NCBI RefSeq assembly: GCF_011299555.1
Contig: NZ_CP049857.1
Coordinates: 496,001-560,000, forward strand
Direction: 5' to 3'
Length of the DNA stretch: 64,000 bases
Source of the DNA: Dysgonomonas sp. HDW5A
GTDB lineage: Bacteria; Bacteroidota; Bacteroidia; Bacteroidales; Dysgonomonadaceae
Positions 11,702 to 34,528 of the stretch are shown in pieces (position 1 is the stretch's first letter; each line of letters begins with the position of its first letter). The notes under the pieces are model-generated. The model had not been told where the DNA came from. It worked only from the letters and a program-made list of their open reading frames with translations, and did not search any database. Position numbers and translations under genes: made by a program.

Positions 11702-11726
11702 ATTTAAGTTTCCTACATAATAAAAT

Positions 11727-11761
11727 AAAACCCTCTTTCGTTTAAAGATAGAGGGTTTTTA
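11727..11761 (+). terminator. Rho-independent terminator of spt
   Basis: AAAACCCTCT at 11727-11736 pairs perfectly with AGAGGGTTTT at 11750-11759 and runs into T's. It separates spt from the T9SS cargo gene. Confidence 0.85.
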
Positions 11762-11810
11762 TTTTTATATATACGACTAAGCATTCATTAAAAGATCTCA
11801 ATATCAAAAT

Positions 11811-13106: not shown

Positions 13107-13129
13107 AGACGTAGTATTTAATAGAAACA

Positions 13130-13161
13130 AAAAAGATGAAAGCTTTAACTTTCATCTTTTT
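13130..13161. terminator. Bidirectional terminator
   Basis: AAAAAGATGAAAG at 13130-13142 pairs with CTTTCATCTTTTT at 13149-13161 around a six-base loop. It lies between convergent genes and gives a T-run on either strand. Confidence 0.9.
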
Positions 13162-13167
13162 CTATTT

Positions 13168-18632: not shown

Positions 18633-21431
18633 ATGACTCGTAATATATTTTTGACAGTTATAAGTGTCCTTATATTATCATGCGCCGGAATATCAGCCAA
18701 CAATCCTAACATTATCAACTTTAGCAGGAACGACTACCAGGCCGGAAATAAAAACTGGTCTTTGAGCGAAGACGAGAAAGGCATAATGTATATTGGAAAT
18801 GATTTAGGTTTATTGGAGTTTGACGGAATAGACTGGCATCTGAACAAATTGCACAAAGCCGATGTAGTAAGAGCCATATACGCAGCTTCCAATCAGACGA
18901 TATATACCGGAGGTTATGAAGAATTTGGCAGATGGGACAGAGATATCAGCGGCATTCTTAAATATACTTCTTTGAGCGATAACCTTCCCGGAGGACCTTT
19001 GCATAATGATGATATCTGGAGAATCTGGAAGAGAGACAATCTTGTGTATTTCCAGTCATTCAAAAACATATACATATACGATCAGAATAATGTGTATAAA
19101 TTTCCGGAACAAAAAAACATCCTTTTTCTGATAAAAGTAAGGGATGAATTATGGGTTCAGGAAATGGGAGGAAGCCTCTTTAAAATCGAAGGGAACAGGT
19201 ATGAAAAAATAGCGGGCAGTGATATATTTTCCAAAACAGAAGTCAAGACTGTACTGCCGACTTCGGATAATAAATACATTATAGGTACATCTTCGATGGG
19301 GCTCTATATTTACGACGGATCAGAGTTCAAAGTCTGGAATAACAACAGAGAGCTTATAGACAATAATGTTAATTGCGGATTAGCTGCACGAAATGGTAAT
19401 TACTATTTCGGTACAATACTTGGAGGCATATATGAGGTGTCTCCCAGTGGCAATATAACCAATCATTTCAATACTGAAACATATCTCCATAACAATACCG
19501 TACTGGCCTTATATGAAGATCGCTCCAATAATATCTGGGCAGGGCTGGATAGAGGTATTTCATGTATACAATACCTAAATGGCATTAGCTGTATGACCGA
19601 TCCTAAGGGCAAAATAGGAGCAGTATATTCGGCTGCATTGTATGACAACAAATTATTCATTGGCACCAACCAAGGCACATATTATATAGAAAAAAATGAT
19701 TTATATAGTATGAACGCTCTTTCTAAGTTCAAGTTGGTTCCCAGAACCGAAGGTCAGGTATGGAGTTTAAATGTTATTGATGGTCAACTGTACTGTTCAC
19801 ATAACCGGGGTCTATTAATTATAGACCGGAATCTATCGGTAACATCCCCCTATAAAATAAACACAGGAGTATTCTATACACTGGAAAAAGATAAAGACCA
19901 TCTTCTTTTAGGAACTTATATCAGTTTAATGTCTATAGATAAAAGCACAAAGACTCTCTATAAACTCAATGAAATTCAGGAACCTATAAATAAAGTCCAG
20001 ACGGATCATCTCAATAATGTTTGGTTGCAGCACATGAACAAAGGCATATACCGAACCAGACTCAATGATGATTTTTCGAAAATAGAATCATTCAAATATT
20101 ACGGAAACGAAGGACAACAAGACATTCCCTATAAATTAAAGTTATTCAAAGTAGGAGGAAGGGTTGCTTTTCTAGGTAATAATAAATTTTACACCTATAA
20201 CGATATTGACGGTACCATTGTACCTGAGCATGCTTTAAATGAATGCTTCCGTGATATTTCAGGGCTCAAAGAGGTTGTAAATATATCCCCTAATAATTTC
20301 TGGATCATAGGTAATGATCTTATTTATAATGTAACTTACAATGATAACACAGCCCAAATAAAATTCAGAATAGACATCGGTTATAAGAACTTCTCGATGA
20401 TCGATAATTATGAAAATATTGTAAATCTGGATGATGACTATAGCCTGGTTTGCTTGGATAACGGTTTTCTATTATGTAAAAATAAAGTCACAGCCGAAAA
20501 CAAACCAATAGCTCAACCTTATTTTAAATCTATCAGAATATCTAATTCAGGGGGTGAATCGGTTTATCTTGATAATAACTTCAATCAAATAAGCCATTCG
20601 TTCAATACTATAAGATTTCAATTTTCAACAGCTGAAACCTTAACGCGTAATATATCCTTTAAATATAAGCTTGAAGGGTTAGACGATCAGTGGTATGTGT
20701 TGAAAAATCAAAATAATATTACCTATGAACGTCTTCCTAAAGGAAAATATACCTTCGTTGTTGTTGCCATAGATCGTCAAGGAAACAAATCGGAGGAGAT
20801 AAAATTCTCTTTCGAAATACTCGCACCATGGCATCAATCCGGTTGGGCCGTTCTAGCCTATTGCCTATTATTTATTTTGTTCATCACTTCTATAATTATG
20901 TATATCCAATACAAGTACAAAAAATTGCATATAAAGAAGTTACGCATATTGGAGACCAAACGCTTAAACCTTATCAACGAGCTTCTAAAGCAGGAAGTAG
21001 AAGAAAAAAATGCAGAATTACTTTCTCAAACTTCATTTATTATACAACGTAATGAACTTATTCTTAAAATAAAAAATGAAGTAGAAGAGTTCTACACGAA
21101 ACAAAACAACAAAACATTGACTCCACTTTTTCAAAAGATAAATACCCTATTGAATAGTAATCTTGATAGCGAAGAAGACTGGAAAACATTCCTTATTAAA
21201 TTCGAACAAAAGCACACAAATTTCTTTAAAAAAATAAAAGAAACTTACCCTCAGCTTACAGCAAATGACCTGAGATTATGTGCCTGTTTAAAACTGAATT
21301 TAGACTCAAAAGAGATAGCTGCATTAATGAACATTTCGGTAAGAGCTGTAGAAAATAGCAGATATCGACTACGCAAAAAGCTTGATATACCTTCGCACCA
21401 GCATCTAAACGATTTCTTTTTGCAAATATAA
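18633..21431 (+). CDS. Membrane-spanning propeller sensor with LuxR-type DNA-binding domain
   Basis: A 932-residue regulator at the head of the carbohydrate locus. Signal peptide 1-22 is followed by a long periplasmic beta-propeller (about 30-640) with repeated D-G-x-x-W, G-T-x-x-G-x-Y and N-N-I-W-A-G-L-D-R-G-I blades. Next come a Y_Y_Y domain (about 655-730), one membrane helix near 735-755, a cytoplasmic coiled coil (about 765-810), and a LuxR-like helix-turn-helix near 874-917 (L-T-A-N-D-L-R-L-C-A-C-L, L-D-S-K-E-I-A-A-L-M-N-I-S, R-A-V-E-N-S-R-Y-R-L-R-K-K-L). There is no kinase or receiver domain, so it is a one-component, membrane-tethered transcription factor. It probably senses the glycan in the periplasm and controls susC onward. 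Confidence 0.88.
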   Translation: MTRNIFLTVISVLILSCAGISANNPNIINFSRNDYQAGNKNWSLSEDEKGIMYIGNDLGLLEFDGIDWHLNKLHKADVVRAIYAASNQTIYTGGYEEFGRWDRDISGILKYTSLSDNLPGGPLHNDDIWRIWKRDNLVYFQSFKNIYIYDQNNVYKFPEQKNILFLIKVRDELWVQEMGGSLFKIEGNRYEKIAGSDIFSKTEVKTVLPTSDNKYIIGTSSMGLYIYDGSEFKVWNNNRELIDNNVNCGLAARNGNYYFGTILGGIYEVSPSGNITNHFNTETYLHNNTVLALYEDRSNNIWAGLDRGISCIQYLNGISCMTDPKGKIGAVYSAALYDNKLFIGTNQGTYYIEKNDLYSMNALSKFKLVPRTEGQVWSLNVIDGQLYCSHNRGLLIIDRNLSVTSPYKINTGVFYTLEKDKDHLLLGTYISLMSIDKSTKTLYKLNEIQEPINKVQTDHLNNVWLQHMNKGIYRTRLNDDFSKIESFKYYGNEGQQDIPYKLKLFKVGGRVAFLGNNKFYTYNDIDGTIVPEHALNECFRDISGLKEVVNISPNNFWIIGNDLIYNVTYNDNTAQIKFRIDIGYKNFSMIDNYENIVNLDDDYSLVCLDNGFLLCKNKVTAENKPIAQPYFKSIRISNSGGESVYLDNNFNQISHSFNTIRFQFSTAETLTRNISFKYKLEGLDDQWYVLKNQNNITYERLPKGKYTFVVVAIDRQGNKSEEIKFSFEILAPWHQSGWAVLAYCLLFILFITSIIMYIQYKYKKLHIKKLRILETKRLNLINELLKQEVEEKNAELLSQTSFIIQRNELILKIKNEVEEFYTKQNNKTLTPLFQKINTLLNSNLDSEEDWKTFLIKFEQKHTNFFKKIKETYPQLTANDLRLCACLKLNLDSKEIAALMNISVRAVENSRYRLRKKLDIPSHQHLNDFFLQI

Positions 21432-21576
21432 AAGGCACACAATATCAATTACAAAAACCTAATTAACAGCATATTATTTTTTTTTGAGTAGTAATAATGA
21501 GGTATGGTTATTGTTAAATATAAGACCTATGTATACATTATGAGACAAATTTCATAGCGACTGACCTTAGTGTTTT

Positions 21577-21584
21577 TACATTTG
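21577..21584 (+). promoter_or_regulatory. -7 box of the susC promoter
   Basis: TACATTTG matches TAnnTTTG exactly and lies 92 bases before the susC ATG. The 245-base spacer otherwise shows no open frame. No good -33 TTTG is present at standard spacing, as expected if the promoter needs an activator such as the upstream regulator. Confidence 0.55.
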
Positions 21585-21676
21585 CTGCAACTCATTCAAG
21601 AAAAACAAGATATTTTTTACTAAAATTCTTATGGCGTTTTTTAGAAATATTTAGACTTGTCAGGCTGAATGAAAAA

Positions 21677-24600
21677 ATGTTAAACAGTAAAAATCAGAAA
21701 TCCATGAAAGAAACTAGATTGACCTCTACGAGGAGAATCAGTATGAAGTTTTGTCTTCTACTATTCTTAATCTTCTCAGCAAGCATCTCAAATGCTTTTG
21801 CTCAGACTACAGTAACAGGAGTAGTCACCGATGAGCAAAAAGATCCACTACCGGGTGTTAGTGTTACAGTCAAAGGTTCCACTACAGGAACAGTTACCGA
21901 TTTTGACGGTAATTATTCCGTTACCGTAAAATCAGGCGATGTACTTGAATTTACATTTTTAGGAATGAAACCACAATCAATTCCAGTTGGGTCTAAAACA
22001 AAAATCGACGTTGTATTAATTGATGATACCCACGAATTAGAAACAGCAATTGTAATTGGTTATGGTACTGCAAAAAAAAGAGATTTAACAGGATCTATCG
22101 TAACAGTAAAAGGAGATGATGTATTTACAAAACCGGCATCTAATCCATTGGCCTCTATACAAGGTAAAGTAGCAGGGGTACAAGTAATAAATACCGGTAA
22201 AGCTGGACAAGATCCTGAAATTCGTATACGAGGAACAAACTCTATCAATGGTTACAAGCCTTTATATGTGGTAGACGGATTATTTAATGACAACATTAAC
22301 TTCCTGAATCCTGCCGATATCGAATCTATGGAAATTCTTAAAGATCCCTCATCATTAGCAATTTTCGGGGTACGTGGTGCAAATGGTGTTATCATCATTA
22401 ATACTAAAAGAGCAAAAGAAGGGCAAACCCTTGTGAATATAAATACAGCTTTTGGCTTCAAGCAAGTTGTAGATAAAATAAAAATGACTAATGCTCCTCA
22501 ATTTAAAGAACTTTATAATGAGCAATTAGTCAATCAAGGAGATAAGCCTTACGATTTTACAGACTGGCAAGCAAACACAAATTGGCAGGATGAAATTTTC
22601 CAAACCGGATTTATGTCTAACAGTAACGTTAGTGTAACAGGTTCTACAGATAAAAGTAAGTTTTATCTAGGAGTAGGATATGCTTCTGAAGAAGGAAATA
22701 TTAAGCATGAAAAATTCGGAAAAGTAACTGTCAATTTAAGCAGTGACTATAATCTAACTAAAGACATTAAAGTTGGGTTTCAATTTAATGGTGCAAGAAT
22801 GACCCCTGCTGATCAAAAATCCGTACTTAAAGCTTTATATGCAGCTCCAGTAGCTCCCGTATTCAATGAAGAGTTTCAACTATATCACGCTCTGCCTAGC
22901 TTTCAAAAAGCACAAATTGAAAACCCAATGGTTGATATTAGTGCAAGAAGCAACACAACGAAAGCTTTAAACTATCGTGGTGGCGGTAATGTATATGGAG
23001 AAGTAAACTTCCTTAAGAACTTCAATTTCAAAGCAATGTTTGCTCTTGACTACAGATCTGACGATAGCCGTAAATATACTCCTATAGTTGCAGTATACGA
23101 TCCATCGATTGGAGGCCCCAACCCTATTGACACTTTAGGTACCAAAAAAACGAGTGTACAGCAGATAAAAGAAGATGAAACTAAAGTACAGGCTGATTAT
23201 GTATTAACTTATACCAATAAGATTAACGACCATAGCATTACAGCAACCGCAGGTTTCACAACATTCTATAATAGTTTAACAAAACTTACCGCAGAAAGAG
23301 GTCAAGGAGAAGGTTTACCTATACCTAATAACCCTGATAAATGGTATGTGAGCATGGGTGATCCTAGTACATCTAAAACTGAGAGCGAACAATGGGAGAG
23401 ATCAACAGTATCATTCCTTTTACGAGCTCTTTATAGCTACAAGAACAAATATCTGTTTAACGGTTCATTCCGTCGCGATGGATCTTCGGCATTCTTCTAT
23501 ACAGGTAATCAATGGCAAAATTTCTACTCTGCAGGTGGAGGTTGGGTTATGTCTGAAGAAGACTTTATGCAAAACCAATCTGTTATTGACTTCTTAAAGA
23601 TTAAAGGATCTTGGGGTACACTAGGTAATCAAAACATGTCGACTCCATATCCGGCACAACCTCTTTTGACAAACGAAACATCTGCTATATTTGGCAATCC
23701 TTCAGTGGAATACCCTTCATATTCTTTGAAATACATCCCAAATCCAAATTTGAGATGGGAAAAGATTGAAGCTTGGGAAGCCGGATTTGAAATGAATATG
23801 CTTGCAAATAGATTGCGCTTAGAAAGTGTATATTACAAGAAAAACACAAAAGATCTTCTAGCTGAGATCCCAGGAATCGCAGGAACAACACCTGGCCTAG
23901 GAAACTTAGGAGAAATTCAAAATAAAGGTTTTGAAGTTGTAGTTTCGTGGAATGACAAGATTAATACTGACTGGGGATATAGTATAAGTGGAAACTTAAC
24001 AACAATAGACAACAAAGTAAAATCACTGGTACAAGATGGATATACTATCATCAAAGGTGATAAAAACATATCACATACTACAGCAGGATATCCTATTGGA
24101 TTCTTCTATGGCTATACTGTAGATGGTGTATACCAATCCGATGCAGATATTGCTAATTCTCCTAAAAATACTTTAACAACTGTAAAGCCCGGAGACCTTA
24201 AGTTCAAAGATATGGATGGTGATGGCAAAATAACAACTGCCGATAGAGGTATGATTGGTAACCCAACTCCTGATTTTACTTATGGTATTTCACTAGGACT
24301 TAATTACAAAAATTTTGACCTTGGAGTTGACTTGATGGGGGTATATGGAAATGAGATATACAGAACTTGGGATAACTATAACTGGTCACAATTCAATTAT
24401 ATGTCTCATCGCCTTGACAGATGGCACGGAGAAGGTACATCTAACTCAGAACCGATATTGAATACAACCCGTACAATAAATAATGAAAACTCAACTTATT
24501 ATATCGAAGACGGAAGTTTCTTTAGAATCAGAAATATCCAAGTAGGTTATACTTTTGACCAAAATGCACTAAAAAAAGTACGTGTAAAAGCCTTGAAAGT

Positions 24601-24748
24601 ATTTGTTAATGCTCAAAACTTGAAAACTTGGAAAAACAATACAGGTTATACGCCTGAATTAGGAGGTGATGCTACAGCATTTGGTATAGACAATGGATCT
24701 TACCCTATGCCTGCAATATACACTTTTGGTCTAAATCTTACTTTCTAA
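21677..24748 (+). CDS. SusC-family TonB-dependent outer-membrane transporter
   Basis: A 1023-residue outer-membrane importer. A long signal region ends N-A-F-A-Q near residue 43. A carboxypeptidase-regulatory-like domain follows (about 46-130, V-T-D-E-Q-K-D-P-L-P-G-V-S-V), then the SusC signature G-Y-G-T-A-K-K-R-D-L-T-G-S and the plug (about 145-245) with I-R-G-T-N-S-I-N-G and V-V-D-G. The remainder is a 22-strand barrel ending in G-L-N-L-T-F. It forms a glycan uptake complex with the SusD-like lipoprotein encoded 20 bases downstream. The substrate is inferred from the neighbouring enzymes. Confidence 0.96.
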   Translation: MLNSKNQKSMKETRLTSTRRISMKFCLLLFLIFSASISNAFAQTTVTGVVTDEQKDPLPGVSVTVKGSTTGTVTDFDGNYSVTVKSGDVLEFTFLGMKPQSIPVGSKTKIDVVLIDDTHELETAIVIGYGTAKKRDLTGSIVTVKGDDVFTKPASNPLASIQGKVAGVQVINTGKAGQDPEIRIRGTNSINGYKPLYVVDGLFNDNINFLNPADIESMEILKDPSSLAIFGVRGANGVIIINTKRAKEGQTLVNINTAFGFKQVVDKIKMTNAPQFKELYNEQLVNQGDKPYDFTDWQANTNWQDEIFQTGFMSNSNVSVTGSTDKSKFYLGVGYASEEGNIKHEKFGKVTVNLSSDYNLTKDIKVGFQFNGARMTPADQKSVLKALYAAPVAPVFNEEFQLYHALPSFQKAQIENPMVDISARSNTTKALNYRGGGNVYGEVNFLKNFNFKAMFALDYRSDDSRKYTPIVAVYDPSIGGPNPIDTLGTKKTSVQQIKEDETKVQADYVLTYTNKINDHSITATAGFTTFYNSLTKLTAERGQGEGLPIPNNPDKWYVSMGDPSTSKTESEQWERSTVSFLLRALYSYKNKYLFNGSFRRDGSSAFFYTGNQWQNFYSAGGGWVMSEEDFMQNQSVIDFLKIKGSWGTLGNQNMSTPYPAQPLLTNETSAIFGNPSVEYPSYSLKYIPNPNLRWEKIEAWEAGFEMNMLANRLRLESVYYKKNTKDLLAEIPGIAGTTPGLGNLGEIQNKGFEVVVSWNDKINTDWGYSISGNLTTIDNKVKSLVQDGYTIIKGDKNISHTTAGYPIGFFYGYTVDGVYQSDADIANSPKNTLTTVKPGDLKFKDMDGDGKITTADRGMIGNPTPDFTYGISLGLNYKNFDLGVDLMGVYGNEIYRTWDNYNWSQFNYMSHRLDRWHGEGTSNSEPILNTTRTINNENSTYYIEDGSFFRIRNIQVGYTFDQNALKKVRVKALKVFVNAQNLKTWKNNTGYTPELGGDATAFGIDNGSYPMPAIYTFGLNLTF

Positions 24749-24768
24749 TTATATAAAATAATATTTTT

Positions 24769-26295
24769 ATGAAACGATTAATAAAAAAATATATACTTCC
24801 GGCAGTACTTATAGCCGGATTGAGCCTAACAAGTTGTAGCGACTTTTTAGATAGAAGTCCTCTCGGAAATTTAACAGAAGACGATGCACCGGGAGGTATA
24901 AATCAGGGAAGAGTATTCCAGATTTACGGGCTTATGAGAGGTTATAATATTACAGCTGGTATACCTGCATTTGCTATACATAATTTCCGTTCTGAAGATT
25001 CGGAAAAAGGTAGTGATGCTGGGGACGGATCTGATCAGGCAGCTTTTTTCGATAATTTTGAATACAATACAACCAATGGTGTATTGGCTTCTTATTGGAC
25101 AGAAAACTATAAGGTTATAGTTAATTGCAATACAGCGATAACAAGTATTGAGGAGCAAGCAACCAGAACAAAACAAGATACTATAAATTATGGGGAAGCT
25201 AAATTTTTTAGAGCTTACGCTTTCTTCAATTTAGTAAGAGCTTTCGGAGAAGTACCTAAAATAGATTTTAGAGTAACAGACCCTGCTCAAGCTAATATCG
25301 CAAAATCTCCAGCAGCTGATATTTATGCACTGATTGACGCAGATTTGGCTGTTGCAGTTAAATACTTGCCTACACACTGGTCAAATGATTTTACAGGTCG
25401 TTTAACATGGGGGGCTGCAAGATCATTACAAGCAAGAACTTATATGATGCGTAGCGATTGGAACAATATGCTAGCCGCTTCAAAAGACGTAATTAATTCG
25501 GGATTTTACAATCTAAGTACTCCTTATGATAAAATCTTTACTGATAGCGGTGAAAACTCTCCTGAATCGATATTCGAACTACAATGTATGTCTACAGCGG
25601 CTAAACCAAACTCCACTAGTATTGGTAGCCAATTTGCAGAAGTACAAGGTGTAAGAGGATCAGGTCAATGGAACCTAGGCTGGGGATGGCATATGGCTAC
25701 TACTGAGCTTATGAATAAGGCTTACGAAAAAGGTGACCCTCGTAAAGATGCAACATTATTATATTTCCGCAGAAGTGTAACAGATCCTATTACTCCAGAG
25801 AACACCAACACTCCTTTCGGAGAGTCGCCTGTATCTACTGCAATGGGAGCGGCATACAATAAAAAAGCATATACAGATCCTGCTTTACGTAAACAATTTA
25901 CAAATGGAGGTTTTTGGGTAAATATAAGATTGATACGCTATGCAGATGTTCTTCTTATGGCTGCTGAAGCTTCAAACGAGTTAGGAATGAGTTCTGATGC
26001 TCTTAACTATTTAGAACAAATAAGAAGCCGTGCCCGTGGAAACAACACCGCTATTCTACCTAAAGTTACCACTACTAGCCAAACTGAATTGAGAGATGCT
26101 ATTCGTCATGAAAGACGTGTAGAACTAGGCTTAGAACCAGACCGTTTCTATGATTTAGTACGCTGGGGAATCGCTAAAGAAGTATTACATGCTGCCGGTA
26201 AATTAAATTATCAAGATAAACATGCATTACTTCCTATACCTCAGGTTGAAATAGATAAATCAAATGGAGTATTAGTTCAGAACCCTAATTTCTAA
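24769..26295 (+). CDS. SusD-family glycan-binding lipoprotein
   Basis: A 508-residue surface lipoprotein. Signal peptide and lipobox L-S-L-T-S-C place the lipidated Cys at residue 23. The body follows the SusD/RagB pattern: N-C-N-T-A-I near 123, E-A-K-F-F-R-A-Y-A-F-F-N-L-V-R-A-F-G-E-V-P, L-T-W-G-A-A-R-S-L-Q-A-R near 210, and a C-terminal R-Y-A-D-V-L-L-M-A-A-E-A, R-H-E-R-R-V-E-L-G-L-E-P-D-R-F-Y-D-L-V-R-W and L-P-I-P-Q-x-E-I-D-K. It caps the SusC channel and binds oligosaccharide. Confidence 0.96.
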   Translation: MKRLIKKYILPAVLIAGLSLTSCSDFLDRSPLGNLTEDDAPGGINQGRVFQIYGLMRGYNITAGIPAFAIHNFRSEDSEKGSDAGDGSDQAAFFDNFEYNTTNGVLASYWTENYKVIVNCNTAITSIEEQATRTKQDTINYGEAKFFRAYAFFNLVRAFGEVPKIDFRVTDPAQANIAKSPAADIYALIDADLAVAVKYLPTHWSNDFTGRLTWGAARSLQARTYMMRSDWNNMLAASKDVINSGFYNLSTPYDKIFTDSGENSPESIFELQCMSTAAKPNSTSIGSQFAEVQGVRGSGQWNLGWGWHMATTELMNKAYEKGDPRKDATLLYFRRSVTDPITPENTNTPFGESPVSTAMGAAYNKKAYTDPALRKQFTNGGFWVNIRLIRYADVLLMAAEASNELGMSSDALNYLEQIRSRARGNNTAILPKVTTTSQTELRDAIRHERRVELGLEPDRFYDLVRWGIAKEVLHAAGKLNYQDKHALLPIPQVEIDKSNGVLVQNPNF

Positions 26296-26306
26296 ATAAT
26301 AAATTG

Positions 26307-26345
26307 ATATAATAGGGGCATATTTCTGTCCCTATTATATTTTTA
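26307..26345 (+). terminator. Intercistronic hairpin after susD
   Basis: ATATAATAGGG at 26307-26317 pairs perfectly with CCCTATTATAT at 26330-26340, followed by TTTT. It lies between susD and the enzyme genes. It probably terminates part of the transcripts, keeping susC/susD message above that of the downstream enzymes. Confidence 0.75.
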
Positions 26346-26359
26346 TATCAAATCAACCC

Positions 26360-27394
26360 ATGAGAACGCTAAGAATACTACTGTTTCTATTAATTTGTGT
26401 ACCGTATATTTCGCTTTCAGCATCTTCTAGATTAGTGACTCTTGACAAATATATTATACCTGTCAATGTAAAAGGAGCTATAATTGGAAAGGTCGTAATA
26501 GAAGGCAATGACAAGGTCACTTTAGAAAAGGATACTTCAAAGCTTTTTCTAATAGATCAATCGGGTTACATTAAATTAAAACCAACCGTAGCACTTTCGG
26601 CCTCATCACCTATCAAATACGAGATTATACTAAAAACAGGCAGTGGAAATAAAGCTTTTGAATTAGTCAAAGACGAATTTATTCACAACAAAGTAATAGC
26701 CCATCGTGGTGCATGGAAAAACCATGAGGCGAGTCAGAATTCACTGAGTTCATTAAGAAAAGCCATCGAATTAGGATGCGAAGCTGCAGAGTTTGACGTT
26801 TGGCTATCATCAGACAACAAAGTAGTTCTTTCTCATGACCCTACAATTGGAGGCAAAACAGTTGAAGATACTCCAGCCAAAACATTAATGGAGATTCCCC
26901 TGAAAAATGGAGATTTCGTTCCCTCACTAGAGGAATACCTTGGGTGTATTAAACACCAAAATAAAACACGATTAGTGTTAGAACTTAAAGGTTCGCAAAA
27001 AGGGAAAGACCGCAGTTTAGCACTTGCTGACTCGGCTGTTCAATTAGTTCACCGCTACAAAGCTCAAGCTTGGGTTGACTATATCAGTTTCGATTATGAA
27101 GCATTGCTGCGTGTAAAGGAATTAGATCCGACAGCGGTGATTTCATACTTGGAAACAAATAAAACGTTAGAAGAATTATCTGCTGACAGAGTAGATGGGA
27201 TAGATTATCATTACAGTGCATTCTATAATGATGAAAAACTGACAGATAAAGCAAAAAAATTGGGTTTAACAACCAATGTATGGACGGTAAATACCGAAGA
27301 ACAAATGCAATATCTCCTACAACAGGGTGTCGATTATATAACAACCGATGAACCCGAATTACTTTTGAAATTTATAGAAACACATTATAAATAA
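26360..27394 (+). CDS. Glycerophosphodiester phosphodiesterase (GDPD family)
   Basis: A 344-residue exported phosphodiesterase. Signal peptide 1-21 precedes an extra N-terminal beta domain of about 85 residues and then the GDPD barrel from residue 110. Catalytic and metal positions are visible: His115-Arg116 in A-H-R-G-A-W, Glu144 and Asp146 in E-F-D-V, and His159 in S-H-D-P. The loop that usually reads P-E-N-T is S-Q-N-S. The family releases glycerol phosphate from glycerophosphodiesters. It lies inside a glycan utilisation operon, five bases before the GH3 gene. I infer that it may strip phosphoglycerol groups from a decorated glucan rather than act on lipid head groups. Confidence 0.9.
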   Translation: MRTLRILLFLLICVPYISLSASSRLVTLDKYIIPVNVKGAIIGKVVIEGNDKVTLEKDTSKLFLIDQSGYIKLKPTVALSASSPIKYEIILKTGSGNKAFELVKDEFIHNKVIAHRGAWKNHEASQNSLSSLRKAIELGCEAAEFDVWLSSDNKVVLSHDPTIGGKTVEDTPAKTLMEIPLKNGDFVPSLEEYLGCIKHQNKTRLVLELKGSQKGKDRSLALADSAVQLVHRYKAQAWVDYISFDYEALLRVKELDPTAVISYLETNKTLEELSADRVDGIDYHYSAFYNDEKLTDKAKKLGLTTNVWTVNTEEQMQYLLQQGVDYITTDEPELLLKFIETHYK

Positions 27395-27399
27395 TAGAT

Positions 27400-29685
27400 A
27401 TGAAAAAACTATTAACTATGCTTTTTTGCTGTGCCGCAATTAGTGTCGGAGCCCAGCAGAGCAGTACAAGAGATGTAAAAATGGATCGATTCATCGACGA
27501 TCTGATGAGTAAGATGACTCTCGAAGAGAAAATCGGACAGCTTAATCTACCCGGTGCAGGAGACATTACCACCGGTCAGGCTAAAAGCAGTGATATCGCA
27601 ACCAAGATCAAACAGGGTCAAGTTGGAGGTTTATTCAACATCAAGGGTGTTGAAAAAATCCGTGAAGTACAACGTGTAGCTGTAGAAGAAAGCCGCATGA
27701 AAATACCTATGATTTTCGGTATGGACGTTATTCACGGATACGAAACCGTATTTCCTATTCCATTAGGATTAGCTGCAACATGGGATTTGAAAGCAATAGA
27801 ACACTCAGCACGTATAGCAGCCACAGAAGCTAGTGCCGATGGTATATTCTGGACATTCAGCCCAATGGTTGATATCTCACGTGACCCACGTTGGGGACGT
27901 GTATCGGAAGGCAACGGAGAAGACCCTTTCTTAGGTGGAGCAATTGCGAAAGCAATGGTTCGCGGTTATCAGGGTGATAATACTTATTCTGACAATACTC
28001 ATATTATGGCTTGTGTAAAACACTATGCACTATATGGTGCAGGTGAAGCCGGACGTGATTATAACACGGTAGATATGAGCCGCAACCGTATGATGAATGA
28101 ATACATGTATCCATACAAGGCAGCAGTAGAAGCCGGTGTAGGTAGTGTTATGGCTTCATTCAACGAAGTAGACGGAGTGCCTGCAACTGCCAATAAATGG
28201 TTAATGACAGACGTACTTCGCAAGCAATGGGGATTCGAAGGTTTTGTTGTTACTGATTTTACAGGAATCAGCGAAATGATAGAACACGGTATCGGCGACT
28301 TACAAGAAGTATCGGCACGTGCCCTAAAAGCAGGTGTAGATATGGACATGGTAGCTGAAGGCTTTACTGGTACAATTGCGAAATCGTTGAAAGAAGGTAA
28401 AGTATCGCAAGCTGATATTGACCAGGCTTGTCGTCGTATACTTGAAGCCAAATATAAATTAGGCTTATTCAAAGATCCATACAAATATATGGATGTTAAG
28501 CGTCCTAAAAAAGAAATCTACACGGAAGCAAATCGTGCAGTAGCTCGTAAAATAGCTTCAGAAAGTTTCGTATTGTTGAAAAATGCAGGAAATGTTCTTC
28601 CTCTTAAAAAACAAGGAAAAATTGCAGTAGTAGGTCCATTGGCTAATACTCGCTCTAATATGCCCGGAACTTGGAGTGTAGCTGTTAATCTGGATAAACC
28701 TCAAACGGTTATCGAAGCTATGCAAGCTGTTGGTGGAAAGGATGTAAAAATAGTATATGCCAAAGGAAGCAACCTTACAGCTGATGCTAAACTGGAAGAA
28801 AATGCAACTATGTTTGGACGTACTCTAAACAGAGACAACCGTACTAAAGAAGAACTATTGAACGAAGCTCTTGAAGCATCTAAAGATGCAGATGTTATTG
28901 TTGCAGCATTAGGTGAATCTTCGGAGTTTAGTGGTGAAGCAAGTAGCCGTTCAAACATTGATATTCCTGATGTTCAAAAAGAACTATTGGCAGAACTTCT
29001 AAAAACAGGTAAACCAGTTGTACTAGTATTGTTCACAGGTCGCCCATTGACTCTTACTTGGGAAAACGAAAACGTACCCGCTATACTTAACGTATGGTTT
29101 GGTGGAAGTGAAGCTGCCCCTGCAATTGCAGACGTAGTATTCGGTGATGTTAACCCTAGCGGTAAACTGGTTGCCACTTTCCCACAAAATGTAGGTCAAA
29201 TTCCTCTTTTCTACAATCATAAAAACACAGGTCGTCCTTTGGCCGAAGGTAAATGGTTCGAGAAATTCCGTAGTAACTACATTGATGTTAGCAACGAACC
29301 TCTTTATCCATTCGGATACGGTTTGAGCTATACTCAATTTACATATGGCGATGTTGTTCTTAGCTCTGCTAATTTAGATCAAAACGGCGAACTGACTGCC
29401 AGCATTACTGTTACAAACAGCGGTAAATATGATGGAAAAGAAGTGGTGCAAATGTATATCCGCGATTTAGTGGGTAGCATAACCCGTCCGGTTAAAGAAT
29501 TAAAAGGTTTCGAGAAAATAGAATTAAAAGCAGGAGAAACTAAAACAGTTAGTTTCAAGATTACTCCTGAATTACTTAAATTCTATAACTACGATTTAGA
29601 ATATGTATTTGAACCCGGAGATTTTGATGTTATGATTGGTGGTAGCAGCCAAGATGTCAAGACAGCCAGATTCACTTTAAATTAA
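27400..29685 (+). CDS. bglX: GH3 beta-glucosidase, BglX-like
   Basis: A 761-residue periplasmic glycoside hydrolase family 3 enzyme. Signal peptide 1-19 is followed by the N-terminal barrel with D-V-I-H-G-Y, H-Y-A-L-Y-G-A-G-E-A-G-R-D-Y-N and the nucleophile Asp286 in G-F-V-V-T-D-F-T-G. The alpha/beta sandwich contains a candidate acid/base loop (L-G-E-S-S-E-F-S-G-E-A-S-S-R). The C-terminal fibronectin-III-like domain ends at 761. The domain order matches BglX-type exo-beta-glucosidases. Some Bacteroides homologues act on beta-1,2-linked glucose oligomers; the neighbouring GH144 gene favours that specificity here. Confidence 0.94.
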   Translation: MKKLLTMLFCCAAISVGAQQSSTRDVKMDRFIDDLMSKMTLEEKIGQLNLPGAGDITTGQAKSSDIATKIKQGQVGGLFNIKGVEKIREVQRVAVEESRMKIPMIFGMDVIHGYETVFPIPLGLAATWDLKAIEHSARIAATEASADGIFWTFSPMVDISRDPRWGRVSEGNGEDPFLGGAIAKAMVRGYQGDNTYSDNTHIMACVKHYALYGAGEAGRDYNTVDMSRNRMMNEYMYPYKAAVEAGVGSVMASFNEVDGVPATANKWLMTDVLRKQWGFEGFVVTDFTGISEMIEHGIGDLQEVSARALKAGVDMDMVAEGFTGTIAKSLKEGKVSQADIDQACRRILEAKYKLGLFKDPYKYMDVKRPKKEIYTEANRAVARKIASESFVLLKNAGNVLPLKKQGKIAVVGPLANTRSNMPGTWSVAVNLDKPQTVIEAMQAVGGKDVKIVYAKGSNLTADAKLEENATMFGRTLNRDNRTKEELLNEALEASKDADVIVAALGESSEFSGEASSRSNIDIPDVQKELLAELLKTGKPVVLVLFTGRPLTLTWENENVPAILNVWFGGSEAAPAIADVVFGDVNPSGKLVATFPQNVGQIPLFYNHKNTGRPLAEGKWFEKFRSNYIDVSNEPLYPFGYGLSYTQFTYGDVVLSSANLDQNGELTASITVTNSGKYDGKEVVQMYIRDLVGSITRPVKELKGFEKIELKAGETKTVSFKITPELLKFYNYDLEYVFEPGDFDVMIGGSSQDVKTARFTLN

Positions 29686-29713
29686 ACTGTTCTTAGGTTC
29701 TATAACGCCAAGT

Positions 29714-29751
29714 GAAAGAGGTTGTCAGAACAAATTCGGGCAATCTCTTTC
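29714..29751 (+). terminator. Hairpin after the GH3 gene
   Basis: GAAAGAGGTTG at 29714-29724 pairs with CAATCTCTTTC at 29741-29751 with one G-T pair. No clear T-run follows, so it may stabilise or process the mRNA rather than stop transcription. Confidence 0.45.
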
Positions 29752-29800
29752 CATATTTAAGCAACAGAACTTTTTTTATACTAACTAGAAAAATTATCTT

Positions 29801-31165
29801 ATGAAAAAGGTATTCACTCCGTTTATAATATTTAGTCTTGCACTGTTATTTACAAATTGTAAAAATAACAGCAATAATGCTCAAGACGCAATTGCGGAAA
29901 ATCCATCCGTAGAAATTAGTGACGAGGCTCTACTCGACAGTGTTCAACGACGCACTTTTAATTATTTCTGGGATGGTGCCGAACCAACCAGCGGTATGGC
30001 TCGTGAACGTTATCATGTGGATGGAGAATATCCTCAGAATGATGCAAACGTTGTTACTTCTGGAGGTAGCGGATTTGGTATCATGGCAATTATTGCCGGA
30101 ATAGATCGTGGTTATGTGACTCGCGAAGAAGGTGTAGCCAGAATGGACAAGATTGTAACTTTCTTGGAGAAAGCCGATAGTTTTCATGGAGTATTCCCTC
30201 ACTGGTGGTATGGCGAAACAGGTAAAGTCAGAGGTTTCAGCGACAAGGATAATGGTGGTGATCTAGTAGAAACATCATTCCTGATGCAAGGTCTTTTGGC
30301 TGCACATCAATACTATGTAAACGGATCGGATGCCGAAAAAGCAGTAGCTGCACGTATCGATAAATTATGGAAAGCAGTAGACTGGAACTGGCATCGTAAC
30401 GGAAAAAATGTACTATACTGGCACTGGAGTCCTGAGCATTCTTGGGAAATGAACTTTGCTATCCGCGGTTTCAACGAATGTTTAATTACATATATTCTTG
30501 CAGCAGCCTCTCCAACTCACGGAGTACCTGCACCTGTATATCACGAAGGTTGGGCCGAAAACGGAGCAATAGTAGATCCTCATACTGTAGAGGGTATTAA
30601 ACTTAACCTGCGCTACCAAGGAACAGAGGCCGGTCCTTTATTCTGGGCTCAATATTCTTTCTTAGGATTGAACCCTACAGATTTGAAAGACGATTATAGT
30701 GCCAACTATTTTGATGAAATGAAAAACTATACGCTTGTTAATCGTGCTTATTGTCTTCGCAATCCAAAAGGATATAAAGGATATGGTGAAAATGCATGGG
30801 GATTAACTGCCAGCTATTCTACCGTTGGATATGCTGCACATGAACCTTCCGAAAGAGGCGATCATGGGGTTATTACTCCAACCGCTGCTGTAGCTTCAAT
30901 TGTTTATACTCCCGAAGAATCGATGAAAGTAATACGCAATCTTTATTCGATGGGAGACAAAATGTGGGGTAAATATGGTTTCTACGATGCTTACAGCGAA
31001 ACAGACAACTGGTATCCTCAACGATATTTGGCTATCGACCAAGGTCCTATAGCTGTAATGATTGAGAACTACCGTACCCAATTACTTTGGAAATTATTTA
31101 TGAGTCATCCTGATGTTCAAAATGGTTTGAAAAAATTAAATTTCGGAAGTCCTTCTTTAAAATAA
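29801..31165 (+). CDS. GH144-type (glycoamylase-like fold) lipoprotein, probable beta-1,2-glucanase
   Basis: A 454-residue predicted lipoprotein (lipobox L-L-F-T-N-C near residue 20). The sequence follows the glycoamylase-like (Pfam Glycoamylase, GH144) pattern: Q-R-R-T-F-N-Y-F-W, V-T-S-G-G-S-G-F-G-I-M-A-I, H-W-W-Y-G-E-T-G, D-L-V-E-T-S-F-L-M-Q-G-L-L, W-H-W-S-P-E-H-S-W-E-M-N, Y-G-E-N-A-W-G-L-T-A-S and a C-terminal D-Q-G-P-I-A-V-M-I-E-N-Y-R. Characterised GH144 enzymes cut beta-1,2-glucans in endo or exo mode. It follows the GH3 gene, and lipidation suggests it is exposed on the cell surface or in the periplasm. Confidence 0.85.
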   Translation: MKKVFTPFIIFSLALLFTNCKNNSNNAQDAIAENPSVEISDEALLDSVQRRTFNYFWDGAEPTSGMARERYHVDGEYPQNDANVVTSGGSGFGIMAIIAGIDRGYVTREEGVARMDKIVTFLEKADSFHGVFPHWWYGETGKVRGFSDKDNGGDLVETSFLMQGLLAAHQYYVNGSDAEKAVAARIDKLWKAVDWNWHRNGKNVLYWHWSPEHSWEMNFAIRGFNECLITYILAAASPTHGVPAPVYHEGWAENGAIVDPHTVEGIKLNLRYQGTEAGPLFWAQYSFLGLNPTDLKDDYSANYFDEMKNYTLVNRAYCLRNPKGYKGYGENAWGLTASYSTVGYAAHEPSERGDHGVITPTAAVASIVYTPEESMKVIRNLYSMGDKMWGKYGFYDAYSETDNWYPQRYLAIDQGPIAVMIENYRTQLLWKLFMSHPDVQNGLKKLNFGSPSLK

Positions 31166-31178
31166 TAAGTGTAAAATA

Positions 31179-31216
31179 ATAGAGAGCTTGTATTTACAAC
31201 AGGCTCTCTATCTTAT
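31179..31216 (+). terminator. Hairpin after the GH144 gene
   Basis: ATAGAGAGC at 31179-31187 pairs with GCTCTCTAT at 31203-31211, followed by CTTATT. It is a moderate intercistronic terminator candidate. Confidence 0.6.
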
Positions 31217-31240
31217 TAAATAATATATCTAACCTCTATC

Positions 31241-32995
31241 ATGAAAATATTAAAATACGCTATACTATCCATACTCTGCATATTGGGAGCGAATACCTAT
31301 GCACAGCAGAAAACATATTGTAATCCTATTAATATTGATTATGGATATTGTCCGATCCCTAACTTCACGGAATGGGGAAAACACCGTACCTCTGCCGATC
31401 CTGCCATTGTGAATTACAAAGGCGATTACTATCTTTTTTCTACTAATCAGACCGGATACTGGTGGAGCAGCGATATGCTGAACTGGAATTTCGTTTCCCG
31501 CCCTTTCCTTACAGAAGAAGCAATAGAGCAAACTCCTAATAAATGGGACGACCTTTGTGCTCCGGCTGCATGGACAATGGGAGATACTCTGGTAGTTTTC
31601 GGATCTACTTACTCTCGTATATTTCCAATCTGGATAAGTACCGATCCTAAGAATAACAAATGGGAAAAAGCTGTCGAGCATTTCGATATCGGAGGTTGGG
31701 ATCCTGCATTCTTTACCGATGACGATGGTAAACTCTATATGTATAACGGTAGCAGTAACGTATATCCATTGTATGGAATCGAATTGGACAGGAAAACATT
31801 CCAACCGATAGGAACCCGTAAAGAGTTACTCTTAACTGATGGGGATAGAATAGGATGGCATCGTTTTGGAGAACACATGGATAATACTTTCCTTAAACCA
31901 TTTATGGAAGGTGCGTGGATGACCAAACACGATGGTAAATACTATCTGCAATGGGGAGGTCCCGGAACCGAATTCAGCCATTATGCCGATGGTTATGCTG
32001 TAAGCGACAGTCCTCTCGGATTCTTCGAACATGCATCATTGCCATTAAGTATGAAAGCCGGTGGTTTTATTCGCGGAGCAGGTCATGGTGCTACTTTCCA
32101 AGACCGTTGGAATAATTACTGGCATACATCGACTATGGTTATCAATGTAAAGAATAACTTCGAACGCCGTATCGGAATATGGCCTGCCGGATTCGACAGC
32201 GAAGGCAATATGTATTGCAATACTGCATTTGGAGATTATCCTCACTATATACCAACAGGAGAAGCCGATCACTTGAAAAGCCAGTTTACCGGATGGATGC
32301 TTTTAAATTATAATAAGCCTGTGCAGGTTTCATCTACTTTAGGTACGCATTATGCCAATAATATTGTAGACGAAAATATCAAAACTTACTGGAGTGCTAA
32401 AAGTGCCGACAAAGGTGAGTGGCTGATTTCGGATTTAGGTGAAGTTTCGACAGTATATGCCATACAAATAAATTATGCTGACCAAGATGTCGAATTTATG
32501 GGAAAAACTTTAGGTAAATTTCATCAATATAAAGTATATTCGTCTCTAGATGGAAAAAAATGGGATGTACTCATAGATAAGAGCAACAATAAAACGGATG
32601 TTCCTCATGACTATGTAGAATTAGAGAAGCCCGTTAAAGCCCGTTACGTAAAACTCGAAAACATACACATGCCTACAGGTAAATTTGCCATTTCGGGATT
32701 CCGTGTATTCGGATTCGGTGCCGGCGAGAAACCTGCTCCTGTTGAACAGTTCATGGTATTACGTACCGAAACGGATAAACGCAGTGCTTGGTTGAAATGG
32801 AAACCGGTAGAAGGTGCATATGCGTATAATATCTATATCGGAATAGAACCCGACAAATTATATAGCAGCGTAATGGTTCACAATACAAACGAGTATTATT
32901 ATGCAGGGATGGATAGAACCAAACCTTACTATTTTGCGATTGAAGCCATTAACGAAAACGGCACATCGACTTGGACCAGAGGCGAAGCTAAGTAA
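31241..32995 (+). CDS. GH43-like five-bladed propeller protein with discoidin and fibronectin-III domains
   Basis: A 584-residue exported protein. Signal peptide 1-21 is followed by a GH43-like catalytic propeller (about 40-340) with the probable general base Asp53 in S-A-D-P-A-I, G-G-W-D-P-A-F-F, and the probable acid glutamate in M-E-G-A-W-M-T-K. A discoidin (F5/8 type C) carbohydrate-binding domain follows at about 360-485 (N-I-V-D-E-N-I-K-T-Y-W-S-A, R-Y-V-K-L-E-N-I-H). A fibronectin-III domain closes the protein (W-L-K-W-K-P-V-E-G-A-Y-A-Y-N-I-Y). The substrate cannot be read from sequence; GH43-like enzymes cleave arabinosyl, xylosyl or galactosyl units. It may remove a side group from the locus substrate. 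Confidence 0.85.
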   Translation: MKILKYAILSILCILGANTYAQQKTYCNPINIDYGYCPIPNFTEWGKHRTSADPAIVNYKGDYYLFSTNQTGYWWSSDMLNWNFVSRPFLTEEAIEQTPNKWDDLCAPAAWTMGDTLVVFGSTYSRIFPIWISTDPKNNKWEKAVEHFDIGGWDPAFFTDDDGKLYMYNGSSNVYPLYGIELDRKTFQPIGTRKELLLTDGDRIGWHRFGEHMDNTFLKPFMEGAWMTKHDGKYYLQWGGPGTEFSHYADGYAVSDSPLGFFEHASLPLSMKAGGFIRGAGHGATFQDRWNNYWHTSTMVINVKNNFERRIGIWPAGFDSEGNMYCNTAFGDYPHYIPTGEADHLKSQFTGWMLLNYNKPVQVSSTLGTHYANNIVDENIKTYWSAKSADKGEWLISDLGEVSTVYAIQINYADQDVEFMGKTLGKFHQYKVYSSLDGKKWDVLIDKSNNKTDVPHDYVELEKPVKARYVKLENIHMPTGKFAISGFRVFGFGAGEKPAPVEQFMVLRTETDKRSAWLKWKPVEGAYAYNIYIGIEPDKLYSSVMVHNTNEYYYAGMDRTKPYYFAIEAINENGTSTWTRGEAK

Positions 32996-33012
32996 AGGTT
33001 ATAGACCTTTTA
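32993..33012 (+). repeat. Intergenic palindromic element, copy 4 (diverged)
   Basis: TAAAGGT-TATAG-ACCTTTTA forms a palindrome overlapping the TAA stop of the GH43-like gene. The arms are AGGT/ACCT rather than AGGTC/GACCT, and the tail is not conserved. Confidence 0.45.
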
Positions 33013-33052
33013 CTAGTCTAGTGAATTATTGAGATCTTTAACTATTGACAAT

Positions 33053-33817
33053 ATGAAATCGAAACTATTAATTGTATTCTTATTTTTATGTTCTGCTCTT
33101 ACTTATGCACAGTTTGAGTCTGCCAGCTATATGATCAACGGATATACTATTCCCTATCAGGTTATGTTTCCCAAAGATTATGACGCAACTAAACAATACC
33201 CTCTTTTGGTATTCCTCCATGGTGCGGGTGAGCGTGGCAGTGACAATGAAAAACAGCTTACTCATGGTAAAGATTTTATGATTGATCATTTTCAAGCTGA
33301 ATATCCTGCAATAGTTATTGCTCCACAATGCCCCGAAGAAACCTATTGGTCTAATGTAGAGAAACAAACTTTAGGCAATAAAACCACATTTACATTCGGG
33401 TTGTCAGATAAAGCCACCCCTTCGATGGAAACTTTGGTTTATCTGATAACGAACTGGATCAACTCCGGAAAGGTCGATCAAAGTAAAGTATATGTAGGAG
33501 GTCTTTCGATGGGCAGTATGGGTACATACGAACTTTTGTGGCGTATGCCCAATACCTTCGCTGCCGCTTTTGCCATATGTGGAGGCGGTGATGTTTCGAA
33601 GGTTCAATACTATACCAAGAATACAGCTCTCTGGATATTTCACGGATCGGCAGACAGTGTAGTGCCCGTACAATTTTCACAACAGATGTACGAAGCTCTC
33701 AAATCGGCAGGAAACGAAGTAAAATATACAGAGTATCCGGATGTTAATCATGGCAGTTGGATAAATGTATTTCAGAATAAAGAACTAGTTCCATGGCTGC
33801 TAAGCCATAAAAAATGA
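33053..33817 (+). CDS. Exported alpha/beta-hydrolase, probable carbohydrate esterase
   Basis: A 254-residue exported hydrolase when started at the ATG at 33053, which places the signal peptide (1-20, ending T-Y-A-Q) at the N-terminus; the nine-residue longer reading has no such feature. The catalytic triad is probably Ser152 in G-G-L-S-M-G-S, Asp201 in H-G-S-A-D-S-V-V-P and His233 in D-V-N-H-G-S-W. The oxyanion region is F-L-H-G-A-G-E-R-G-S-D. It resembles poly-domain phospholipase/carboxylesterase and CE1-like enzymes found in glycan loci. It is the last gene of the locus, before a strong terminator, and may remove ester groups from the substrate. Confidence 0.87.
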   Translation: MKSKLLIVFLFLCSALTYAQFESASYMINGYTIPYQVMFPKDYDATKQYPLLVFLHGAGERGSDNEKQLTHGKDFMIDHFQAEYPAIVIAPQCPEETYWSNVEKQTLGNKTTFTFGLSDKATPSMETLVYLITNWINSGKVDQSKVYVGGLSMGSMGTYELLWRMPNTFAAAFAICGGGDVSKVQYYTKNTALWIFHGSADSVVPVQFSQQMYEALKSAGNEVKYTEYPDVNHGSWINVFQNKELVPWLLSHKK

Positions 33818-33838: not shown

Positions 33839-33876
33839 AAGAGTCTTTGGGATGAGAATTCCAAAGACTCTTTTTT
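33839..33876 (+). terminator. Terminator of the polysaccharide utilisation locus
   Basis: AAGAGTCTTTGG at 33839-33850 pairs with CCAAAGACTCTT at 33861-33872 and runs into T's. It defines the 3' end of the locus. Confidence 0.9.
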
Positions 33877-33910: not shown

Positions 33911-34528
33911 ATGCTTATCTATACAGAAGAAAATAAGGGTTGTAAGTGGGGAATCTGGAAGATGGAAGAAACTCCCGAACTTTTATTATCTCAATTAACG
34001 AATAAAGAGGATCTGATTCGTTTTATTGATACTACAACTTCTCCTGCAAGAGTTCTTGAACGAATTTCGGTAAGAGTACTTCTCAAAACACTTCTCGGAG
34101 AAGAGAAAACAATAAGCTACCAATCGAATGGAAAACCGTACTTCGAAGACCGTTCTGTAAACATATCCATTTCGCATACAAAAGATTATGTAGCGATTAT
34201 ACTTTCGCAGTCGCCCCTATTAGGTATCGATATAGAGTATACTTCAGACCGGGTAAGACGTATTCGTTCGAGGTTTATATCTGATGTGGAATACATTAAC
34301 CCTGAAAACGAAACATTACATTTACTACTTCATTGGTCAGCTAAAGAAACTATGTATAAGGCGTTGAGCCGTGAAAAAATCGACTTGAAGAATAATTTCC
34401 ACATTAAGAAATTCATCCCGCAAAACCAAGGTTACTTCGAAGCACAGGAAACATTTACGGAAGATAGCCTCAACTTCCGGATTCAATACATTGTAACTGA
34501 TGATTATGTAGTTACATATACGCTATAA
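33911..34528 (+). CDS. 4'-phosphopantetheinyl transferase superfamily protein
   Basis: A 205-residue Sfp-type enzyme that moves 4'-phosphopantetheine from CoA to carrier proteins. The family motifs are present: G-K-P-Y-F near residue 77, S-I-S-H-T-K-D-Y, the magnesium-binding G-I-D-I-E-Y, and W-S-A-K-E-T-M-Y-K-A-L. Its length matches Sfp-like rather than AcpS-like members. No carrier protein or synthase lies nearby, so the target is unknown; fatty-acid acyl carrier protein is the default candidate. Confidence 0.9.
   Translation: MLIYTEENKGCKWGIWKMEETPELLLSQLTNKEDLIRFIDTTTSPARVLERISVRVLLKTLLGEEKTISYQSNGKPYFEDRSVNISISHTKDYVAIILSQSPLLGIDIEYTSDRVRRIRSRFISDVEYINPENETLHLLLHWSAKETMYKALSREKIDLKNNFHIKKFIPQNQGYFEAQETFTEDSLNFRIQYIVTDDYVVTYTL

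Follow-up and report, generated by a model that had tools for sequence, protein, structure and literature searches.

The window analysed here is a stretch of 64,000 nucleotides from Dysgonomonas sp. HDW5A (contig NZ_CP049857.1, positions 496,001 to 560,000), belonging to a single-contig genome of 4.30 Mb. At positions 18633-33817 it harbors a polysaccharide utilization locus (PUL) of eight genes, all on the + strand, coding for a regulator, SusC, SusD, a glycerophosphodiester phosphodiesterase (GDPD), a GH3, a GH144, a GH43-like protein and an esterase; among named relatives, D. alginatilytica and Dysgonomonas sp. HGC4 are the nearest here. We give about an even chance to the reading that this PUL is directed to the beta-1,2-glucan of other bacteria, in a version equipped for charged, substituted forms of it. 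The GDPD would probably remove from the glucan a phosphodiester-linked group, most likely sn-1-phosphoglycerol. This reading is based on the gene content, on intact active-site residues and on a linkage between GDPD and GH144 genes that is repeated in distant lineages. The initial annotation had described a co-directional block of eight genes, closed by a strong terminator and with the GDPD five bases upstream of the GH3. All eight positions, strands and families were recovered, the hairpin at 33839-33872 ranks first in the list of terminator-like sites, and exactly five bases (27395-27399) lie between the GDPD stop and the GH3 ATG. The features are the following:

18633..21431, + strand: one-piece membrane regulator, with a Reg_prop propeller (38.5 bits), Y_Y_Y (56.4 bits), a transmembrane segment (assigned by eye) and a LuxR-like helix-turn-helix (HTH)
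21677..24748, + strand: SusC-type TonB-dependent transporter (TIGR04056, 884 bits)
24769..26295, + strand: SusD-type surface glycan-binding lipoprotein (PF07980, E 5e-36)
26306..26341, + strand: terminator-like hairpin in the gap between SusD and GDPD, 15 pairs and a T tail
26360..27394, + strand: GDPD-family phosphodiesterase with an N-terminal beta-rich domain, residues ~25-107 (PF03009, 96.9 bits, cut-off 23.6)
27400..29685, + strand: GH3 beta-glucosidase of the BglX type (PF00933/PF01915; BglX model passed)
29801..31165, + strand: predicted GH144 endo-beta-1,2-glucanase, probable lipoprotein (lipobox by eye; PF10091, 274.7 bits)
31241..32995, + strand: GH43-like protein (PF04616, 74.4 bits, cut-off 32.2) with an F5/8 type C domain (PF00754) and a probable C-terminal FN3 domain
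33053..33817, + strand: secreted alpha/beta-hydrolase esterase (PF02230, 57.5 bits, cut-off 23, E 2e-15)
33839..33872, + strand: terminator-like hairpin closing the block, 15 pairs and a T tail

Each of the eight gene products contains at least one domain scoring over the Pfam or NCBIfam cut-off, the C-terminal LuxR-type HTH of the regulator falling slightly under that of Pfam (21.7 vs 23.5). Adjacent susC and susD genes accompanied by at least one carbohydrate-active enzyme gene, the combination that defines a PUL, are present. The start of the esterase is more likely the ATG at 33053 than the listed TTG at 33029, because a putative signal peptide begins at the former. Signal peptides recognized by eye suggest that the GH144 is a lipoprotein and that the GDPD, the GH3, the GH43-like protein and the esterase are periplasmic.

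The GH144 of the window can be aligned over residues 26-454 with CpSGL, the GH144 endo-beta-1,2-glucanase of Chitinophaga pinensis (PDB 5gzh, 5gzk), with a score of 648 bits. Its E226 corresponds to E211 of CpSGL and its E157 to E142, a correspondence read by eye with a constant numbering offset of 20 assumed in chain 5gzk. E211 occupies the general acid position of CpSGL, where the E211Q replacement drastically lowers the activity, and E142 is the most plausible base (PMC12102758). Both the relation to CpSGL and the two acidic residues are conserved, and the same activity is predicted for the window enzyme. The GH3 matches over residues 21-760, with 1226 bits, the chain PDB 5xxl, which we take to be BT3567 of B. 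thetaiotaomicron, active on beta-1,2-glucooligosaccharides. This comparison concerns the overall similarity and not the subsite residues, and a different GH3 chain, 5tf0, attains a higher score (1281 bits). Since the key glutamates of the GH144 align with those of CpSGL and the GH3 resembles 5xxl, the beta-1,2-glucan backbone proposed by the initial annotation is well supported as the predicted target.

It is very improbable, in our judgement, that the target is instead a different glycan having beta-1,2 linkages or a phosphodiester backbone, towards which the specificity of the GH144 has drifted. Such a drift would be difficult to reconcile with the score of the window enzyme against CpSGL and with the two aligned glutamates. 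Nevertheless, a GH35 from another GH144 PUL is a beta-1,2-galactosidase inactive on beta-1,2-glucooligosaccharides (PMC11739564), so that the neighbours in a PUL can mislead, a point that weighs against the beta-1,2-glucan reading as well. The GH43-like gene and, in another locus (L210), an alpha-galactosidase-like gene are also unexpected for a pure glucan. The GH43-like protein scores over the cut-off of PF04616, solved GH43 structures match it weakly, and its FN3 domain was deduced from a weak match to 7jgt.

Loci containing GH144 are abundant in Bacteroidota and are taken to target beta-1,2-glucan, those with sulfatases being marine (PMC6499787, PMC8072126). A GH3-GH144 locus was present in all the Elizabethkingia genomes compared and is widespread in the phylum, which suggests an action on bacterial beta-1,2-glucan (PMC6786605). 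These PULs share with that of the window the SusC/D pair, the GH144, the GH3 and the suggested target; they differ from it in that marine sulfatases are mentioned, and a GDPD is not, in the available text of the three sources (PMC6499787, PMC6786605, PMC8072126). Among the matches listed by a search of the open-access literature, there was no paper joining a GDPD to a GH144 locus, none on 7ww4, on GDPDs with glucanases or on GDPDs in PULs, and nothing on the degradation of the charged substituents of these glucans by other bacteria. Thus, the backbone target could have been guessed from published work, and the GDPD-equipped variant seems to be new.

As for the GDPD, its AlphaFold model (mean pLDDT 94.0) has a fold matching 7ww4, 3no3 and GlpQ (5t9b). 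The match to PF03009, the TIM-barrel fold and the residues of the HR...ExD...HD...E pattern were all found. In an alignment of 34 sequences, that of the window included, H115, R116, E144, D146, H159, E208 and K210 are invariant, and they match by motif H43, R44, E70, D72, H85 and E152 of GlpQ, the residues named in PMC7086022. The possibility of a dead enzyme, raised by an E-to-Q change in a PENT-like motif (SQNS), was discarded, because Q occurs at this position in the aligned solved chains 7ww4 and 3no3 too and no variation was seen at the metal and histidine residues. Among solved structures, the GDPD domain closest to that of the window is the first half of 7ww4/7wwc (44% identity, 1.0 A), titled a multidomain beta-1,3(4)-glucanase, whose second half is taken for a GH16, on the basis of the title and of the similarly built L038 and L257. 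The window protein differs from it in possessing another, N-terminal, extra domain, cadherin-like by eye; the best 50 Foldseek rows, judged by their titles, match the GDPD part.

Members of the same GDPD family are also embedded in longer proteins. Twelve loci with long GDPD frames, picked for their length, were fetched and ten were scanned, all ten of which contain an extra domain. The GDPD is fused to GH16 in L038:685-2271, L257:3804-5354 and L272:1207-2805, and to GH29 in L274:1180-3267. Other partners are LamG together with BACON (L268), BACON (L265, L266, L267 and L276), LamG (L271), DUF4855 (L270) and an alkaline phosphatase (L273), and all these fusions belong to Bacteroidota. With glycoside hydrolases and binding domains as fusion partners, such a GDPD is likely to work on glycans. 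The same GDPD form is also found in a second type of SusCD locus, represented by L093:5786-17384, where Pfam recognizes a GlcNAc 2-epimerase, an ADP-ribosylglycohydrolase, a calcineurin-like phosphatase, the GDPD, a DUF4434 protein, SusC and SusD; L097, L099, L100, L111, L113 and L116 are perhaps of this type too, judging by the position of SusC/SusD.

The substituent to be removed is suggested by the chemistry of known glucans. In S. meliloti, cyclic beta-1,2-glucans carry glycerophosphoryl or succinyl groups at C6, on separate molecules, and sn-1-phosphoglycerol on Agrobacterium glucans is named in the title of a reference within the same source (PMC7569799). GlpQ of B. subtilis (PDB 5t9b), which shares with the window GDPD the fold and the motif-matched catalytic and calcium residues at 22% identity, accepts sn-glycero-3-phosphoryl groups only, and the mechanism proposed for it employs the glycerol C2 hydroxyl (PMC7086022). 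Since the group on Agrobacterium glucans is sn-1 and GlpQ is strict for sn-3, the GDPD of the window PUL should accept the opposite hand.

It is quite improbable, in our view, that the group removed by the GDPD is not phosphoglycerol but phosphoethanolamine, phosphocholine or another phosphodiester-linked substituent of a bacterial glucan. Phosphocholine occurs on Bradyrhizobium glucans. The substituents of the osmoregulated periplasmic glucans (OPGs) of E. coli include phosphoethanolamine besides phosphoglycerol and succinate (PMC10514313), and the fusions with GH16 suggest that the GDPD family also meets beta-1,3-type glucans; however, the glycerol C2 hydroxyl on which the proposed GlpQ mechanism (PMC7086022) relies is absent from phosphoethanolamine and phosphocholine.

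The linkage between GDPD and GH144 was found in two further lineages, a genus (g189) and a family (f122). In a sample of 150 g189 genomes, drawn from a larger group, GH144 was detected in 61 and GDPD in 32 (33 matches). All the 25 GDPDs at least 74% identical to the query have a GH144 gene at a distance of 2651-3281 bases, which is the case for none of the eight more divergent ones, four of the latter being in genomes without a GH144 match. A near GDPD is thus present in 25/61 genomes with GH144 vs 0/89 without it (Fisher's test, 4.5e-12, phylogeny being ignored). In the 16 loci that were read (15 of the 25, plus that of G464), the GDPD has GH3 on one side (75-157 bases away) and GH43 on the other (4-141 bases away), all three on the same strand, the gene order being regulator, SusC, SusD, GH144, esterase, GH3, GDPD, GH43. 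Fifteen of these 16 loci contain every one of the eight families found in the window PUL, the exception (L189) being devoid of the esterase, and the esterase of g189 has a low similarity to that of the window.

In f122, 40 of the 167 genomes possess a GDPD with an E value of 1e-30 or lower and 35 of these 40 also a GH144. The two genes lie within 10 kb of each other in 5/35 genomes, belonging to five genera, vs an expectation of 0.22 if placement were even (P 2.7e-6, the 5/40 genomes without GH144 being left out). Because a linked GDPD served as the query, linked relatives are favoured, and P is ~8.5e-5 when the genome of the query is excluded. The GDPD and GH144 matches are only 7 bases apart in G444 and 174 in G1007, and the loci of G1000, G1062 and G997 add an esterase, a GH3 or a GH43-like gene. 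In G584 the GDPD is accompanied by similar SusC, SusD and LamG genes, with the GH144 genes located elsewhere. In the locus of G444 (L210:7012-8376), a Melibiase_2 gene, alpha-galactosidase-like, immediately follows GH144 and GDPD, hinting at an alpha-linked sugar on the target of that organism. Another GH144 PUL (L279:7384-19998) contains, beside the GDPD, a gene of the endonuclease/exonuclease/phosphatase family and one for a GDSL hydrolase.

A phylogenetic tree of 148 GDPD domains (of 149 rows, one being without a usable motif) was constructed, in which the label "linked to GH144" needs six changes, at least five of them forced by starred branches; it is a quick tree, with SH-aLRT values only, in which gain and loss are indistinguishable. 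The window GDPD and those of its two relatives group together on a starred branch, nested in a larger starred set; of the 62 rows of this set, the other 59 are unlinked. A second tree was reduced from 132 to 130 rows (two copies of the window gene were dropped) and then to 127 (three rows with identical ends). Since the tree keeps the window lineage apart, the window GDPD most likely entered its GH144 locus in an event independent of those in g189 and f122. That the GDPD stands in this locus by chance and in this genome only, an idea which the order sample described below would favour if taken alone, was rejected, since the linkage recurs in g189 and f122.

Several observations weigh against the reading proposed here. 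One hundred GH144 loci were collected (up to 20 kb each, one per genome, from the GH144-bearing genomes of two samples, 70 and 125, the genome of the window not being among them, and some loci ending at contig ends); a profile search detected a GDPD in five of them, four in g189 and one in f122, and 95/100 have none. When the same loci were clustered, the GH3 cluster occurred in 66, that of the GH43-like proteins in 36, that of the esterase type in 30 and a further one in 10, the last being identified as a sulfatase by the Pfam match of one member. In a survey of the family of the window, using its GDPD as the query against 101 genomes (E 1e-25 or better), 81 have a match and 21 of these the near form (at least 56% identity). 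The near form lies ~2.4 kb from GH144 in only three, that is, the window, G712 and G715, and away from it in the other 18 (in 5 of these GH144 is on the same contig at least 80 kb off, in 9 it is on a different contig, and 4 have no GH144 match). Within the genus of the window, five genomes bear GH144, and two of them (G713 and G714) possess the enzyme set without the GDPD, and G165 (L146), with a close SusC, SusD, GH3 and GH144 (65-75%), has no GDPD within its 20 kb. In a sample of the order, GH144 is present in 70/295 genomes and a GDPD match in 32 of these 70; apart from that of the window, there were 35 GDPD matches, not one of which adjoins GH144 (~0.3 expected, hence no excess). By themselves, the data on the nearest relatives and on the order count against the initial annotation. 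Moreover, the SusC and SusD of g189 show a low identity to those of the window, 28-31% for the former and 31-34% for the latter (47% and 44% in L189), so that the transporters are not common to the two; genomes of one genus do not give independent linkage counts, and contig ends conceal linkage in the many draft genomes. Lastly, the GDPD would need a handedness opposite to that of GlpQ.

In G713 and G714 (L261 and L262), the identity to the window is 82-84% for GH3, 76-77% for GH144, 85% for GH43 and 72-74% for the esterase, and the SusC/SusD pair is a different one (34% and 32-33%); here, the transporter pair seems to have been swapped as a unit.

Some of these data would also agree with a PUL for plain beta-1,2-glucan, in which the GDPD is a passenger of the operon or serves the general scavenging of diesters from phospholipid head groups, an explanation that we consider unlikely. 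Close orthologues of the GDPD are located elsewhere in 18 genomes, as an example in L034, among neighbours that, by eye, are not PUL genes; the enzyme set without GDPD of G713 and G714 and the 95 GH144 loci without it point in the same direction. However, a passenger leaves unexplained both the repeated entry of the GDPD into GH144 operons, in three lineages, and its fusions to glycoside hydrolases and lectin-like domains. The pairing of GDPD and GH144, for which the initial annotation had proposed to search, recurs in three lineages, yet it is accessory. The interpretation given there is supported in part; the five-base spacing between GDPD and GH3, presented as the key clue, is common, among the loci read, only to the window and two close relatives.

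If the PUL is indeed directed to substituted beta-1,2-glucan, GH144 would cut the chain into oligosaccharides, which SusC/D would import. In the periplasm, the GDPD would hydrolyse the phosphodiester of the substituent, most likely sn-1-phosphoglycerol on the C6 of glucose, and the esterase may strip acyl groups such as succinyl; the cleaned oligosaccharides would then be open to the exo-acting GH3, yielding glucose. Removal of the substituent before the release of glucose makes sense because a group on C6 should hinder an exo-acting GH3. The removal of succinyl is a guess, its one basis being that esterases of the same broad fold recur in these loci.

Many Gram-negative bacteria synthesize osmoregulated and cyclic beta-1,2-glucans, which are important in infection and symbiosis (PMC10514313, PMC11842490). 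The GDPDs of GH144 operons are candidate enzymes for the sn-1-glycerophosphoryl group, which GlpQ reportedly refuses, and they form a defined set with which the breakdown of charged glucan substituents is testable using few proteins. More broadly, it is possible, though we lean somewhat against it, that this branch of Bacteroidota GDPDs is a true carbohydrate-active enzyme family that strips sn-1-phosphoglycerol and similar groups from glycans, being the counterpart in handedness of GlpQ, repeatedly recruited to GH144 loci and joined in other proteins to lectin-like, GH16 and GH29 domains. This branch would then represent, within the literature searched, the first described route for recycling the charged periplasmic glucans of neighbours.

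Within the block, a predicted terminator or processing hairpin at 26306-26341 separates the enzyme genes from SusCD. The terminator-like sites of the region are 11, vs 12.7 in shuffled sequences, with no overall excess; two of the 11, this one and that at 33839-33872, have 15 pairs. The 26306-26341 hairpin is retained in both Dysgonomonas sp. HGC4 and D. alginatilytica (L065 and L094), and one of its pairs reads G-T, G-C and A-T in the window, HGC4 and D. alginatilytica, respectively. That this position changes and yet stays paired suggests selection for pairing, and the hairpin may set the amount of the SusCD transcript apart from that of the enzyme genes.

The GH3 of D. alginatilytica (L094, around 11041-13400) reads as two open frames 40 bases apart, which may be a true break or a sequencing error. 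In the window, just past the terminator and on the same strand, a gene for an Sfp-type phosphopantetheinyl transferase is located at 33911-34528, apparently unrelated to the PUL.

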